From Fidelibacterota bacterium (lineage in GTDB: Bacteria > Fidelibacterota > UBA8477 > JABMPR01), in NCBI GenBank assembly GCA_013202495.1, contig JABMQQ010000029.1:1-58424 (forward strand): 58,424 nucleotides of DNA. The letters are read 5' to 3'. Position numbers and translations under genes: made by a program. The notes beneath the pieces are model-generated. The model was not told the origin of the DNA. It was given only the letters and a program-made list of their open reading frames with translations, and ran no database searches. Position 1 is the first letter of the stretch, and every line of letters starts with the position of its first letter. Below are positions 36,007 to 44,200 of the stretch, piece after piece.

Positions 36007-36240
36007 CTTCACCAATTATTTTATTACAGAACTCAACAAGGAGTGTTAAAAATATTGTATCAATCAAAGCATGGATAGTGCCAGTTGGTCACTTTCAAGA
36101 GTTGAAACAAGATAAGGTATCAGAGACTAAGTGCAATTTGAGTTATGGCCTTTGAGATTAACCGATGCATCCCATTCTGCGGGGTCTAACTTATTTGGCG
36201 ACAGCTGTGACAATAAATCTACAATAATTGCGAAAATCTA

Positions 36241-39200
36241 ATGACCGATCTAGAAAAAACTGAATCGACATCAGGCAATACCACCCGATTTATTAGCCTC
36301 ATGATTCTCGTGCTTTTCCTGTGCTCAGGAATGACGGGTTTGTTGTACGAAGTGATCTGGTCCAGGATGATTGTCAAGGTGATTGGAGCTGCTCCATTTG
36401 CCATCAGTATTGTGCTCACCGTGTTCATGGGAGGTCTGGGATTAGGGAGCTATCTGGCTGGAAGATATATTGATCAGATTAAAAAATCCTCCCAACTACT
36501 TCAACTATACGGTCTCATGGAAATTGGGATTGGTATATACGCCTTTGTACTTAAGGGAGTGATTGCAGCCAGTCAGCCAATATTTAGCTCTATCTACAAT
36601 CAGTCCTCAGAGCATCTATTGATATTTAATGCTGTCATTCTACTGGGAGCATTTGTTCTATTCATCTTTCCAGTGACACTTATGGGCGCCACCCTGCCAA
36701 TTCTCATTCGATTTTATGTGGCCAATTTAGGTCATCTCGGAGCCCGAGTTGGTCGACTATATGCCATCAATACAATTGGCGCTGCAGTTGGTTCAATTCT
36801 AAGTGGATTTTTGTTGATAAATTTGTGGGGCGTCGATGGTACCCTTCGATTTGCTGTGGTCATTAATTTCCTGATTGGTGGCATCTCATTTGTTCTGGCG
36901 AATTGGGTTGCCAAGCGTTCTTCTCTGGATGAGCAAAAAGCCGACAGACATGCTGTTGAAGTATCACAAACTGCAGTTGGCGCTCAATATTCGCGTTCTC
37001 ACCAGCTGGCTGTACTGGCTATATTCGCTGTTTCTGGATATGCCGCCATGGCTTATGAGGTGATCTGGACAAGATTGCTCGGGCTAATTATTGGGCCGAC
37101 GACGTATTCATTCACGATTGTACTTACTACCTTTATTGTGGGTCTAGCTCTGGGAGCGATGTTCTTTGGGTGGCTGGCTGACCGAAGCAAACATCCTTTC
37201 CGACTCCTGCTTATCACCCAGATGAGTGCAGCCATCCTGGCTCTTGTAGTAAGTCAGTTTTTGGGCAATAGTCAATTTTTCTTCGCCAAGTTGATCTTCA
37301 GTTTCAGAGACGATTTTGTCATGCTCTACATAGCCAAAGCGACGCTATTATTCCTCCTCTTGCTAGGCCCAACCCTTGCGTTGGGAGCCACATTTCCCCT
37401 GGTGGGGAAGATCTACACCAGTTCCATTCGAAAACTGGGCAAGTCCATTGGATTTGCATATGCCATCAATACCATCGGGGCATTACTGGGAGCCTTCTCG
37501 GCTGGTTTTGTTCTGATTCCCTTATTCGGCAAGGAAAATAGCCTGAGTCTGGTAATTGGTATTCAATTGCTTACCGTATTGGCTATTGTTGGTCTTCTAT
37601 ATCCCAAGGGCGAAAACTCCCGAATCAGACTCATTCTTTTGAGTTCTGGAATCCTTGGTCTGCTCCTCACTTTTGCATTCCCCCATTGGGATAGAGAACA
37701 ATTAGCGACTGGGAAATATTATAGGTTTAGCAGTTATGCAGACATGCTAAAAAACACCAGCTGGTGGGATGCCCTGGTGAAGATGCCCAGGGATTTCATG
37801 CCCAATATCAGTGGTACAGAGGTGGTCTTTTATGGAGATGGTATTGGCGGTTTTACAACGGTGGAGCAGGATATTGATCCACTTGGAAAGCCACAATATG
37901 TTCTATATAATAGCGGTAAGGCAGACGCCTCTTCAGAATCGGATATGGCTACTCAAACCATGCTGGCTCATCTACCTCTACTGTTTCACCCGCAACCTAA
38001 AAATGTCATGATTTTAGGTCTGGCCAGCGGGGTTACTGCAGGGGAAGCCCTATACTATGATTTAGACCGCCTGGATATTCTAGAAATCAGTGAGCAGGTT
38101 GTAGAGGCCAGCGATTTCTTTAGAGAAACGAATAGTGATGTGCTTTCACATCCCGCCACGAATTTGATCATCCAGGATGGTAGAGCCCATCTGGAATTGA
38201 CGGAGCAAGTATATGATGTTATAACTTCAGAGCCGTCCAATCCGTGGATGGCTGGACTGGCAAACTTATTTACTGAAGAGTTCTTCAGACTAACCAAAAA
38301 CAGACTGAGTTGGGACGGTGTATTTATTCAGTGGTTGCCATCCTACCAGATGGATTGGACCACCTTCTCAATGATAGGAAGAACTTTCACCAAGGTTTTT
38401 CCCAATAGCTTGTTGATGAAGTCATTTATCGGTGGTAATGATTACTTATTGGTCGGCTTTAATGGCCTGAAACAACTCGACCTTGAAAACGGACTCAAAA
38501 ATTTGCCCAAGCTTCAAAAATCTCCCAATCTGATTGTTGAAGATCCCAGGATATTGTACCGACTCATCGTAAGTGATAATCTACCTGCTTTGTTCGGTTC
38601 AGGACCTGGACACACCGATGATCACCCCGTTCTTGAGTTTATGGCACCACAACGTATGCATCTGGTAGATAAAACCATTGAAAAAACCCTGGCCGCAAGA
38701 CGCACCCTCGGTGATGAGATTATTGATGTCATGCGGGAAGTTCTTGATGTAGATGGGCAGCTCAAATTTGCCAGGTTTATGCTTTCTGTTTATTCTCCCT
38801 TCCAGGACATGGTAGATTTATCCACAGCAACCGAGGAGCAAAAAGTTGAATATACCGAGATGTTAATGGAATATAGCAAGAGGAATGCGGTTCAGGATTA
38901 CGATATGTTTGAAAGCATGGGTTTGAGAGATACCGTTATTCAAACACAAATAGCTCAACTTACCCAAAAATTACCCAGTCTCCCGAATCGACTTGCTTCC
39001 TTTTTCATCCTGGCCAACGCTCATGCTGAGTTGGGAGATTTCGATGAGGCTATCAAATATTGTCGGCAAATTATTGAAATGGGTAGTGATCCCATTGAGG
39101 CAAATCTCAATTTAGGGTTGTTTTGTATGAATGCTGGACGGAACGAAGAGGCAATCGCTGCCTACAATACCGTCTTGGAGCTGGATCCTGAACACAGTCA

Positions 39201-39957
39201 TGCCCACAATAATCTGGGGACACTTTTCGAGCAGACTGGCGAGACCAAAAATGCGAAAGCTTCCTATGAACAGGCTGTTCTCATAGATCCAGATCTTGCA
39301 ATAGCCCATTTCAATCTGGCTCGCTTACATATGAGCTCAGGGGCTGTGGATTCAGCAATGCTCGCCTATGCCACCGTGTTGAAGTTGGATCCTGAATACG
39401 TACCGGCTTATTATCGGGTCAGCCAAATCTATCAGATTTCAGGAGATTATGAAAAGGCCATTGCAATAATGGAAACCCTCCTCAAAATTCGTCCTGATTT
39501 AAAAGAAGCTCAGATTGAAATAAAAAATCTCACCATGCAAATGGAGCAGGAACAGCCAAAGGTATCAGTTCAGATGCCTCCTCGTACAGCTAAATCAGAC
39601 AAAAGCACGGATCCCAGATATTTTTATAACCAGGCTGTCATGTTGATTCAGAAACAAAAATACAGAGAAGCGATTGTCGATTTTGAACGGGCACTCTCAT
39701 TAAAGCCCGACTATCTCAATGCTCTCATTGGTCTTGGAGCCATGTATCAGAACCTGAGTGAGTATGAAGCTGCTATCAGCCAGTATAAGCGAGCCCTGGC
39801 TATTGACCCAAATCATAGCGGGACACACAATAACATGGCCATTAATTATTATACGGTAAAAAAATATAAATTGGCCATTGAACATGCAGATAAGGCCAAA
39901 GCATTGGGTTTTAAAGTTCAGCAGGCTTTTTTGGATGAACTGTCAAAGTATCGATAG
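36241..39957 (+). CDS. Membrane spermidine synthase-like protein fused to TPR repeats
   Basis: A 1238-residue, three-part protein. Residues about 15-490 contain about 12-14 membrane helices of MFS-like type (FISLMILVLFLCSGMTGLLYEVIWSRMI). A spermidine-synthase-like methyltransferase fold (about 530-800) carries VMILGLASGVTAGEAL in place of GGGDG, LDILEISEQVVEAS, and SEPSNPWMAGLANLFTEEFF in place of the acidic catalytic site, so polyamine synthesis is doubtful. From about 920 on, at least seven TPR units (FDEAIKYCRQIIEMG, EAIAAYNTVLELDPEH, KAIAIMETLLKIRPDL, EAIVDFERALSLKPDY, AAISQYKRALAIDPNH) end the protein. Fused forms of this type are known and unassigned. The upstream 225 bases show no clear promoter or RNA. 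It is monocistronic. Confidence 0.85.
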   Translation: MTDLEKTESTSGNTTRFISLMILVLFLCSGMTGLLYEVIWSRMIVKVIGAAPFAISIVLTVFMGGLGLGSYLAGRYIDQIKKSSQLLQLYGLMEIGIGIYAFVLKGVIAASQPIFSSIYNQSSEHLLIFNAVILLGAFVLFIFPVTLMGATLPILIRFYVANLGHLGARVGRLYAINTIGAAVGSILSGFLLINLWGVDGTLRFAVVINFLIGGISFVLANWVAKRSSLDEQKADRHAVEVSQTAVGAQYSRSHQLAVLAIFAVSGYAAMAYEVIWTRLLGLIIGPTTYSFTIVLTTFIVGLALGAMFFGWLADRSKHPFRLLLITQMSAAILALVVSQFLGNSQFFFAKLIFSFRDDFVMLYIAKATLLFLLLLGPTLALGATFPLVGKIYTSSIRKLGKSIGFAYAINTIGALLGAFSAGFVLIPLFGKENSLSLVIGIQLLTVLAIVGLLYPKGENSRIRLILLSSGILGLLLTFAFPHWDREQLATGKYYRFSSYADMLKNTSWWDALVKMPRDFMPNISGTEVVFYGDGIGGFTTVEQDIDPLGKPQYVLYNSGKADASSESDMATQTMLAHLPLLFHPQPKNVMILGLASGVTAGEALYYDLDRLDILEISEQVVEASDFFRETNSDVLSHPATNLIIQDGRAHLELTEQVYDVITSEPSNPWMAGLANLFTEEFFRLTKNRLSWDGVFIQWLPSYQMDWTTFSMIGRTFTKVFPNSLLMKSFIGGNDYLLVGFNGLKQLDLENGLKNLPKLQKSPNLIVEDPRILYRLIVSDNLPALFGSGPGHTDDHPVLEFMAPQRMHLVDKTIEKTLAARRTLGDEIIDVMREVLDVDGQLKFARFMLSVYSPFQDMVDLSTATEEQKVEYTEMLMEYSKRNAVQDYDMFESMGLRDTVIQTQIAQLTQKLPSLPNRLASFFILANAHAELGDFDEAIKYCRQIIEMGSDPIEANLNLGLFCMNAGRNEEAIAAYNTVLELDPEHSHAHNNLGTLFEQTGETKNAKASYEQAVLIDPDLAIAHFNLARLHMSSGAVDSAMLAYATVLKLDPEYVPAYYRVSQIYQISGDYEKAIAIMETLLKIRPDLKEAQIEIKNLTMQMEQEQPKVSVQMPPRTAKSDKSTDPRYFYNQAVMLIQKQKYREAIVDFERALSLKPDYLNALIGLGAMYQNLSEYEAAISQYKRALAIDPNHSGTHNNMAINYYTVKKYKLAIEHADKAKALGFKVQQAFLDELSKYR

Positions 39958-39994
39958 TTTCGCTGGAATTATATCAAGTGTAATTATTAATGAA

Positions 39995-40215
39995 CATTGC
40001 ATGTCATCGCGGACCCGTAGGGAGCCATCTAGATTGTACATTGAGCTTGTCGAAATGTACGTAAGGACCATGGCAGACAACCTTAGGCTTCGATACTTCG
40101 ACGGAGTTTATACTGAGCTGAGTCGAAGTGCTCAGCACAGGCTTGCTCAGCCTCCGGCGTCCTCGATGCTTCCCCTTGTTCCCTTGAGGGAGTATATACT
40201 CAGCATCGCCGATAT
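39995..40215. repeat. Intergenic palindromic repeat element
   Basis: Between the giant TPR gene and the selenoprotein gene lies a block with short inverted repeats: acttcgac (40095-40102) and gtcgaagt (40122-40129), and tgtacatt / aatgtaca arms around 40036-40060. The style matches the element at 32315-32450, so they are probably copies of one dispersed family. No coding frame is supported. Confidence 0.5.
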
Positions 40216-40251
40216 TCTCGGAATGACTTATAATAACGACATCGTTTACCA

Positions 40252-40887
40252 TCAACCATTGATAAGATTCTTAGCGATTGACAGAATTTTTGCCGTTTCA
40301 ATTCGTTTACGATGATTGTTATCGGTATGGGCGAATCGAATCGTCCCGTCCTTATCTATAATGTAGACGCTGGGAACCGGGATGAGATGGTGATCCTGAC
40401 CGGAAGCAGTTTCAATATTCTGATTGTTTAGCTTGTAGGCTGCAACCTTAACGCTGCCAAAACGTTCTGCAATGTCCAGAGATTGAGCACCCAGCATACT
40501 GCTGTCTGATAGCAGGGTATATGTCAATTCATTTGTATCGATAGTTTTTGAGAGTTCAGTGGGACGATCGGGACTCACAGCAACAATGCGGTATCCCAAC
40601 TCAATCATCTCACCTTCAATTTCTAACAGTTGACCCAACTGTAAATTGCAGTATGGTCACCAGCCTCCGCGATAGTAAATCAATACGACAGGCTCATTTT
40701 GCAGGTAGTCATATAAATCGATTGATTCGTATGCTGTGGAGGTAAGCTGGAAATGGGGGAAGGCATCGCCAACACCAGGTGATTTAGTTGAAATTTCCTC
40801 GGGTGGTAGATTCTGAGCGCAGACACATGTCGCCATGAATGCTGTTAGTAGGACGGATAGGATATAAGATCTTGAAATTTTAAACAT
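40252..40887 (-). CDS. Peroxiredoxin-like selenoprotein (in-frame UGA read as selenocysteine)
   Basis: A 211-residue exported thioredoxin-fold protein. The start is ATG 40887 with ggaga upstream; residues 1-25 form a signal peptide (MFKISRSYILSVLLTAFMA). The reading frame continues through a UGA at 40657-40659 (minus strand), codon 77, into the rest of the domain with no shift. The context is YYRGGW-UGA-PYCNLQLGQLLE, and the family consensus there is YRGGWCPYCNLQL, so UGA sits exactly on the first (peroxidatic) Cys of CxxC, giving a UxxC site. Downstream VAVSPDRPTEL, DSSMLGAQS and VPSVYIIDKDGTIRFAHTD are typical of peroxiredoxin-like family proteins. A hairpin with a GGU apical loop 22-24 bases after the U matches a bacterial SECIS. 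Likely a periplasmic peroxide reductase. Confidence 0.85.
40618..40647 (-). promoter_or_regulatory. SECIS-like hairpin
   Basis: In mRNA sense the segment aauuuacaguugggucaacu and beyond folds with an upper 7-bp stem (acaguug / caacugu) closed by a GGU loop, a 3-base bulge (uag) and a lower 5-bp stem (aauuu / aaauu). The loop lies about 22 bases after the UGA, within the normal 15-40 range of bacterial SECIS elements, and contains the exposed G and U that SelB binds. It is inside the coding frame, as required. Confidence 0.7.
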
Positions 40888-41181
40888 GAGGTCTCCGTTA
40901 TTTTTTCTCCAGCTTAAAATAGGAACTCCCCATATTGAAAATGTATTCACCGCGACACTTATCATAAGAAAAGGAGTGTTTCAGAATCTATGATGGCCCC
41001 CATTATTTTAGCCACGGATGTGCACCCGTCTCTGCTCGTTGTGCTACGCCGGGCAGGCGGATTTTCACCGATAGGATTTGGCACAGGTTATCCGGGCTGA
41101 AGCGTTTGTGATTGTGCTTTGCTGACGTGTCCGCGTCTCATCATAGCCCCATTTTACTCTATACCTTTATACCCTTGACAT
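40888..41181. other. Intergenic region with repeat-like text
   Basis: About 294 bases between the selenoprotein start and the RND terminator. The part at about 41010-41104 (gccacggatg, then cggattttcaccgatag and ggttatccgggc) has the look of the widely dispersed cacggat/tttcacggat intergenic repeat of environmental bacteria. Near 40990 and 41140, gatggccccc and atagcccc flank it. No gene or RNA is supported; a promoter for the selenoprotein must lie in the right part. Confidence 0.35.
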
Positions 41182-41215
41182 TAAAAGAAGAGGCCGCCCT
41201 TTTTGGGACAGCCTC
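41182..41215 (-). terminator. Terminator of the TetR/TolC/MFP/RND operon
   Basis: On the minus strand gaggctgtccc and gggcggcctc pair around a ttttt-complement loop, followed by ttcttttaa. It lies 31 bases past the RND stop codon. Stem 10 bp with one mismatch. Confidence 0.7.
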
Positions 41216-41246
41216 CTTTGATAAAACATGAACGACTCTTAAATAC

Positions 41247-44200
41247 TTATACGTTTTTTAACTGTCTCCGTTCAGCTCGTCGAATTCCTGCATCCGCCAG
41301 AAGGCTGTATAGTGACGGTACAACAAACAAGGTGAGGAAAGTGGCAGCTGTTAATCCACCAATCACGGTGATGGCCATGGGTGCACGCATCTCGGCACCT
41401 TCACTTGAGTCTAATACCATGGGGAGCATACCAAAAATAGTAGTAAGCGCAGTAATCAGGACAGGACGAAGTCGCGTTGAACCAGCTTCAATGATTGCAG
41501 TGGTTGCTTCGATTCCCTTCCGTCGTAACTGGTTAATATAATCCACCAACACAATGCCATTATTCACCACAATTCCAGTGAGCATGATGAAACCGATGAA
41601 ACTGGTAAGGCTGATGGTGACACCGGAAATAAGAAATCCAATGACAACACCTATCAAAGCCAAAGGAATGGTAACCATGATCACTAAGGGATGAATCAAT
41701 GATTCAAATTGTGACGCCATGACCATGAATACGAGCAGGATGGCTAGCGCCAAAGCCTGGCCAAGTGTGATGAAAGTATCGATCATCTGTTCGTATTGAC
41801 CCCCGTATTCCACAAAATACCCATCAGGTAAAGTCGCCTGAATCGGTTTGAGGATTTCGATGATTTCCTCCATCACCGATCCCATATCTCTATCCAGGAT
41901 ATTGGCTGTAACCAGAACCATACGACTTTGGTTATCTCTGACTATTTTAACTGGCCCTTCTTCTTGTGTAATTGAGGCGACCTGAGCCAGTGGGATTTGA
42001 GATTTCATAGGAGTCGTCAGCAGAATTTGTCCAATATCACGTATTGAATTGCGCTGATCTTCCCGGAATTTGATACGGACATTGGTTTCATCGCCGGCAA
42101 AGCGATAGCGGGTGGCTACCTGACCCAGGGTGGAAGCCTTAATGGTGTTGGCCACTTGTCCTGAGACCAACCCCATGCGGTTAATTTCTTCACGATTGAG
42201 AGCAATATGATATTCAGGCTTGGCTTCTTCCATGGAGGATTTGATATCCATAACGCCCTCGACGTCTGCGATGATGGCGGCTACTTCTTTGCTGATCTCT
42301 TCCAGAATAATAAAATCTTTCCCGAAAACCTGAATCTCGACATCAGCTCCACTGCCACCCATGGCTGCTCCAAAGTCAATGCTCTGGATGGTAACATCAC
42401 GCATGGCCGGAATTTCACCACGAATTTTTTCACCGATCTTTGTGGTTGAAAGTGATCTCTCCGATTTTGGCTTCATGGCCAGCATGATCATACCTTCATG
42501 AGATCCAGCGTTAGCCATATCGCCACTCTGGCCGCGATCTTCTTCATTGACACCGTTGGAAACAATCACGGTCTGGACAGCATCTTCTGAAAGGGCAATT
42601 TTTTCCACTTGTCTCACAGCCTGGTCTGTTTCTTCCAGGGCTGACCCAACAGGCAGCTTGATCTTCATCATGAGCATGGCTTGATCCATCTCTGGCATGA
42701 ATTCAGTTCCAACCACTGGAATTAGCGCCATGGAAATAACAAATAACACGGTTGCAGCTCCCAGGGTCTTCCAGCGATGCTGAAGAACTACAGTAAGCGT
42801 TCCCGTATAGACAGCTCGCAAACGAACGATCCAGGACTCGTCTGCTTTAAGGGTGTAATCCACTTTGCTTCTCGGTTTGAAAAAGACCGAGGCGATCATG
42901 GGCACCATGGTGAGTGAGACGAAGAGTGAGGCAAGCAGTGAGAATGAAATTGAAAGTGCCAGCCCTCGAACCAACTGACCTGCAGTACCTGAACCCATGG
43001 CCATTGGTAAAAATACTGCGAGGGTGGTCAATGTGGATGCCGTAATGGCCATTCCAACCTCTGATGCACCCAGGCGGGCGGCCTCCTTGCGGCTTTTACC
43101 TTCCTCAAGATGACGAAACACATTTTCAATAACCACAATGGCATTGTCCACCAGCATACCAATGCCCAGGGCCAATCCTCCCAGCGTGAGGAGGTTGAGT
43201 GTATAACCGACAGCGTTAAGAGGTATAAAGGTAACGATTATGGATGTAGGAATGGCGATTCCAACCGCCAGGGTGGGACGAATATTTCTCAAGAAAAAAT
43301 AAATCATGAGCATGGCCAGAACGCCACCCAATAGTGCGGTTCGACCTGTACTGTTCACGGTGAGCTTCACACTGGAGGACATATCCATCCCGATATGCAT
43401 CTCAATATCTTTAGGTAAAACTTGCTGGAGTTCAGCCAGCTCAGCCTTGACCGCATCAGCAACCTGAACAGTGTTTGTGCCAGATTGTTTGGTAACAATC
43501 ATCATGACGCCCGGTTTAGACTGGACCCGCATTTCCGTACGTAAATCTGATACAGTGTCTTTAACCTTGGCAACCTGTCTGAGTTTGATAGGATTACCCG
43601 TAGGAGAAACTCCAACGATCAGGTCTTCTATTTCTGTCAGGGATGCAAATTCAGCCCGGGTCCGAACCAGAAAATCTTTGTGATCTTCGACGATTCGCCC
43701 AGCTGGCATATTCAGATTTTCAAAACCAATCACCTGGATAATCTGATTCAATGTAATTCCAGAGGTTTCCAGGGCATGTTGATCAATTTCCACCTGTATT
43801 TCTCTTACTTCAGGAGATTGAACGATGACAGAGGCCACACCTTCAATACGCTCCAGACGATAGCCGGCGGTTTCGTCCATATACTCGGCCAACTCATTGA
43901 GGGGTCGTTCTTCACTGGTGACACCATAAAAGAGCAGGGGTAGAGCAGACATGTCAAATTTCATGACCAGGGGCGTTTGGATATCATCGGGTAGGAAGTC
44001 GGCAAACATGGCTAGCTGATCCCGGAGATCCTGTGCTGCAAAATCGAGATTAGACCCGCTCTCAAATTCCACGGCAATCATGGACATACCTTCCACAGTA
44101 GTGGAAACGACGCCTTTCACCCCTGAAACAGAGGCAATGGCCTGTTCGATGGGTTTTGTAACGATGGATTCGATATCTTCGGGGCTGGCTCCACCATAGA

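Follow-up and report, generated by a model that had tools for sequence, protein, structure and literature searches.

According to our analysis, the window (the whole stretch of 58,424 nucleotides analyzed here) very probably carries on its minus strand a gene for a peroxiredoxin (Prx)-like selenoprotein of Candidatus Neomarinimicrobiota, in which an in-frame UGA would be decoded as selenocysteine (Sec) and whose product is probably exported. The first-pass annotation had proposed a Prx-like selenoprotein of the UxxC type at this place, and the proposal is borne out by the alternation of Sec and Cys among homologues, by selection acting on both sides of the UGA, by a hairpin with compensatory changes, by a tRNA-Sec in the same assembly, and by the presence of selA, selB, and selD in the genus. 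With this gene, a marine phylum of mostly uncultured members gains a well-supported selenoprotein, and one of its genera is seen to have the full Sec-decoding set; the Sec, Cys, and truncated copies found in this one phylum make a usable case for the exchange between Sec and Cys.

Reading frame, domain, and active site

The frame of 211 codons is interrupted only by the UGA at codon 77, where the translation reads YYRGGW-U-PYC, the flanking segments being YYRGGW and PYCNLQL (Table 1). It starts with an ATG at position 40887, preceded by GGAG and matched by a methionine in the four nearest relatives, and it ends with a TGA stop at 40252 to 40254. On re-reading, the frame, the TGA, its flanks, and the gene ends were all as first described. 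The expectation that standard annotation would yield two fragments was also correct, since translation table 11 gives two open reading frames (40657 to 40965 and 40252 to 40638) and annotation by that table would cut the gene in two. The two flanks had been assigned to one domain and, when Cys is substituted for the UGA, a single AhpC-TSA domain (PF00578) indeed spans it, from residue 39 to residue 185, with an E value of 6.4e-25 and a score of 87.9 bits against a gathering score of 26. In the window, 17 TGA codons are flanked on each side by 50 or more open codons, and none but this one stands in a UxxC or CxxU context. The N terminus, as read by eye, has basic residues, a hydrophobic stretch, and an AxA-like end, which suggests that the protein is probably exported.

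Table 1. Features of the putative selenoprotein gene in the window
Feature	Position	Strand	Remarks
Putative selenoprotein gene, Prx-like (AhpC/TSA, PF00578) thiol:disulfide oxidoreductase, U77-P-Y-C80	40252..40887	-	211 residues + TGA stop
In-frame UGA, predicted to be read as selenocysteine (residue 77)	40657..40659	-	TGA here, in 9 clear congeneric homologues, and in 3 distant ones; TGC/TGT in 6 others
Cys80 codon, second residue of UxxC	40648..40650	-	Invariant in 18/18 aligned proteins; opposite the conserved Cys when aligned to 2cx3 (Bcp/thiol peroxidase)
Candidate bSECIS hairpin, 7-bp stem, GGU loop, 21 nt from UGA to loop	40626..40642	-	Conservation and model constraints of PMC13188914
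Probable N-terminal export signal, residues 1 to 24, ending ATCVCA	40816..40887	-	Inspection by eye only

When the protein is aligned to the thiol peroxidase 2cx3, U77 is matched with a Ser and C80 with the conserved Cys, which we take to be the peroxidatic one; Sec therefore does not lie at the peroxidatic site of peroxiredoxins. Judged by this alignment, U77 and C80 are a thioredoxin-like pair, Sec standing where a CxxC motif of that type has its first Cys. The earlier statement that the UGA occupies the catalytic Cys thus holds for the first Cys of CxxC and not for the conserved Cys of thiol peroxidases, which aligns with the second. From the UxxC motif, the domain, and the N terminus, the mature protein would be a thiol/selenol oxidoreductase of the thioredoxin fold, with Sec77 as the attacking and Cys80 as the resolving residue, and its substrates, disulfides or peroxides, would be reduced outside the cytoplasm.

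The best NCBIfam match of the protein was the SelL-related redox protein (NF040769), with 46.8 bits and an E value of 2.5e-12 against a cut-off of 120 bits that was not reached; the same model matches all 18 aligned members at an E value of ≤0.001. The SelL motif is UxxU, whereas the one found here is UxxC. Thiol-disulfide oxidoreductases of the ResA/TlpA/DsbE type, of which the active site is CxxC, gave weak NCBIfam matches, the protein remaining below the cut-offs of ResA and DsbE. By description, it matches instead the Prx-like thiol:disulfide oxidoreductase selenoproteins, with which it has in common PF00578, the UxxC motif, Cys homologues, a bSECIS element, and an origin in marine bacteria, and from which it differs in coming from Neomarinimicrobiota and in its export signal, seen by eye. 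The original reports describe 22 Sargasso Sea sequences of a Prx-like family in which TXXU is replaced by a thioredoxin-like UXXC (PMC1088965) and 225 members of Prx-like 1 (pfam00578, UxxC) in GOS (PMC2398784), and two reviews list a Prx-like thiol:disulfide oxidoreductase with UxxC or UxxU (PMC9312934, PMC13188914). The family is thus already known from seawater, and the gene is a well-supported new member of it. Peroxiredoxin selenoproteins, according to one of these reviews, have the motif TxxU (PMC9312934); our protein resembles them in being similar in sequence to peroxiredoxins and thiol peroxidases of solved structure, but their Sec stands in the second place of the motif, where Cys80 is found here, and Sec77 lies three residues before it, not aligned with a peroxidatic Cys. 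Literature searches combining selenoprotein or selenocysteine with the names of the phylum returned, among the matches listed, no title describing these genes.

Conservation of the UGA codon and of the downstream hairpin

When we searched 199 genomes, including the one to which the window belongs (G000), 102 had some match at an E value of ≤0.001, mostly weak, while close homologues with 65 to 91% identity were found on five named contigs, all of Candidatus Neomarinimicrobiota metagenome-assembled genomes. Nine of 18 congeners (G002, G004, G005, G007, G009, G010, G011, G013, and G015) have a clear homologue, each with a single internal stop, which is a TGA at codon 77, and eight gave no match. 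Left out of these counts were a match in G008 (E value of 6e-5), which is another protein with an FFTSW-TGA-PVC site, a second match in G010, which is a decayed fragment containing TAG and TAA from which codon 77 is deleted, and weak rows with TGA, e.g., G107:C12, G099:C7, G153, and G116. Outside the genus, codon 77 is TGA in G195 (two copies) and G069, TGC in G099, G107, G137, and G028, and TGT in the distant G135 and G122, so that the homologue alignment called for in the first-pass annotation does reveal the alternation of Cys and Sec. The tree of 18 proteins needs three switches between the two; if only its well-supported branches are considered, no more than one is required. Being truncated, G007 was excluded from the tree, the dN/dS analysis, and the codon count, and G135 and G122 are absent from one alignment (A2), their stems still being scored.

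In comparisons with the four nearest relatives, dN/dS behind the UGA is 0.09 against G013, 0.12 against G009, and 0.05 against both G010 and G004, with dS in the last two comparisons at 1.4 to 2.0, i.e., near saturation; the part of the gene behind the UGA is therefore translated and constrained in this lineage. Before the UGA, the ratio is 0.14, 0.10, and 0.10 against G009, G010, and G004, respectively, and 0.81 against G013, for which dS is as low as 0.058. After the UGA, a ratio of 0.14 at a dS of 2.2 was obtained against G005, and for G011, G015, and G002 none was computable.

A stem-loop with a GGU loop, which had been placed within positions 40610 to 40660, is found downstream of the UGA (ACAGTTG-GGT-CAACTGT; Table 1) and is conserved in the UGA copies. 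The bSECIS model, as set out in PMC13188914, asks for a loop of 3 to 9 nt, a stem of 4 to 16 bp, a G in the first two loop positions, a spacing of 16 to 37 nt, and a minimum free energy (MFE) of ≤−7.5 kcal/mol. Checked against these rules, the hairpin fits in loop, stem, guanine, and spacing, whereas its energy depends on the stretch folded, being −5.7 kcal/mol for the 17-nt hairpin and −9.2 kcal/mol for the 42 nt after the UGA. With the limits on loop and spacing unchanged, a stem of at least 7 bp arises in 1679 of 20000 synonymous recodings of the gene (8%) and at 1220 of 16079 in-frame positions in the open reading frames of the window. Since 8% of the recodings equal its stem, we rejected the presence of the hairpin by itself as proof; alone it could be chance, and its weight comes from its conservation.

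Across the 13 UGA copies, 96.7% of the 91 hairpin cells are paired, compared with 13 to 51% for versions slid by 1 to 3 columns. Changes on both sides affect two pairs in five cells; five such cells were reached by none of 500 shuffles, while two compensated pairs are few, that number being reached by 74 of the 500. The full 7 bp are intact in 11 of the 13 copies, the exceptions being one copy of G195 (G195b), with 5 bp and a 5-nt loop, and the truncated copy of G007, with a mismatch. In four Cys copies, by comparison, 60.7% of 28 hairpin cells pair and none has changed on both sides, and fitting stems in the six Cys copies never exceed 5 bp; four of these copies do have another 4- to 5-bp stem that would satisfy the loose published rule for stems. 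Codon usage was compared across nine genomes, in which a single codon is used at three of six conserved residues in the hairpin versus four of 59 elsewhere (Fisher p 0.014). The MFE fold of 54 nt includes the hairpin in only three of the 13 UGA copies (G000, G009, and G069) and differs in the other 10, in nine of which a helix pairs the UGA itself. This helix, UGACC/GGUCA, was not favored, as it shows no change on both sides and its A3-U27 pair is lost in G195a and G069. Rfam returned nothing for the whole window at the gathering score and, for positions 40560 to 41300 at an E value of ≤1, one chance-level match to a long noncoding RNA (E value of 0.21).

The selenocysteine-decoding machinery

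The first-pass annotation recommended a search of the genome for selA, selB, selC, and selD. Part of this set was found: the assembly contains a tRNA-Sec (G000:C33:5834-5924, corresponding to L009 1501-1591) that scores 62.6 bits against an Rfam cut-off of 47 and that ARAGORN calls tRNA-SeC with the anticodon tca, whereas in this assembly, which is 86% complete, selA had no match and the matches of selB and selD all stayed below the threshold. Over the cut-off, selA, selB, and selD were each found in 17 of the 18 congeners and tRNA-Sec in 16; G005 and G011 have the TGA gene together with selA, selB, and selD, but no tRNA-Sec over the cut-off. All 17 of the above-cut-off congeneric selD genes (L131 to L147) have an in-frame TGA in U-A-G-K, and the genus therefore has another UGA-bearing selenoprotein gene. 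According to a 2016 survey (PMC5029168), three single-cell genomes of SAR406 had an orphan SelD.

With the machinery present in the genus and tRNA-Sec in the same assembly, ribosomes would not stop at the UGA; SelB with Sec-tRNA(Sec) would recognize the hairpin and deliver Sec as residue 77.

Where the missing genes might lie was approached through the congeners. In G013, selA, an Nramp-like gene, selB, and mutS lie within 16 kb, and this stretch has at least 10 short DNA matches in the assembly (34 to 70 bases, 40 of 56 candidates scored), and none of those scored falls within mutS, which is adjacent to selB; mutS therefore appears to be missing from the assembly too. The match between the neighborhood of selD in G009 and contig C142 of the assembly runs to the final base of the contig (13942 of 13942) and breaks off some 5.5 kb before selD. 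The absence of selA, selB, and selD is best explained by gaps in the sequence, as these matches suggest, though the existence of the genes is unproven. The absence of selB and selC from the complete genome, which had been named as evidence against a selenoprotein, is not what was found as far as this assembly allows, since selC is present and the region of selB is missing from the assembly. As for the surroundings of these genes, the Nramp-like transporter gene sits between selA and selB in G013:C23 (L123, 3205 to 8790) and a TauE/SafE-type gene lies just before selA, both arrangements being, by eye, the same in G010; either gene might be tied to selenium supply.

The tRNA-Sec differs from those of G013 and G009 by two T-to-G changes, one in the D-loop and one that turns an anticodon-stem pair into an A-G mismatch (structure by eye), and neither occurs in the 16 congeners having tRNA-Sec. 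These changes, if real, together with an assembly that lacks selA, selB, and selD over the cut-off when 17 of 18 congeners have each, are what would be expected if the gene were a true selenoprotein gene in the genus, stranded in a species whose machinery is gone and whose tRNA-Sec is decaying. We deem this very unlikely, since the selenoprotein gene itself is intact, the matches scored for the selA-selB region are short and none falls in mutS, the contig matching the selD neighborhood ends before selD, and the tRNA-Sec lies only 70 nt from the end of a contig that is 91% identical to G013. A species that is losing or altering Sec decoding, as the tRNA-Sec changes could indicate, yet keeps a strongly constrained selenoprotein gene, is likewise an improbable case.

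A recent pseudogene of an ordinary CxxC protein, in which TGC or TGT became TGA, or a sequencing error to the same effect, would agree with the split under table 11 and with the lack of selA, selB, and selD over the cut-off, but we hold it to be highly improbable, because the same TGA recurs in nine clear congeneric homologues and three distant copies and is thus conserved across divergent species, the part after the UGA is under purifying selection, and the compensated hairpin of the TGA copies is not kept in the Cys copies. The alignment of the UGA with Cys codons would also suit its decoding as Trp by a changed code or as Cys by a tRNA-Cys with a UCA anticodon, for which we see next to no likelihood, given that the gene itself stops at TGA and the frames of its relatives end at about the same place, that the tca tRNA scores as tRNA-Sec by both Rfam and ARAGORN, that a SECIS-type hairpin follows the UGA, and that selA, selB, and selD are present in the genus.

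Gene decay in relatives and observations on the neighborhood

Other inactivating lesions in close relatives had also been named as evidence against a selenoprotein. The two nearest, G013 and G009, have none, whereas lesions do occur in other congeners. In G007 (L129, 5436 to 5474), a deletion takes the 3' part of the homologue together with the neighboring 1238-aa spermine-synthase/TPR gene, the alignment skipping window positions 36116 to 40543; in G002, the N-terminal part is missing, signal included; and the extra fragment of G010 with TAG and TAA has lost the region of codon 77. With two of nine congeneric copies truncated and this decayed fragment besides, loss of the gene occurs now and then, and some species can evidently dispense with it.

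The product of the neighboring gene, at window positions 36241 to 39957, combines TPR repeats and a spermine/spermidine synthase domain with a membrane part that is MFS-like. On the other side, in the region 40982 to 41251, about 220 bases between an AcrB-type gene and the selenoprotein gene are extra with respect to G013, G009, and G004; they had no match in Rfam and did not recur in the window or in those loci of the assembly that were examined. The weak relative in G008 (C171, L177, 313 to 612), with its own in-frame TGA in FFTSW-U-PVC, probably stands for another family of UxxC selenoproteins in the genus.
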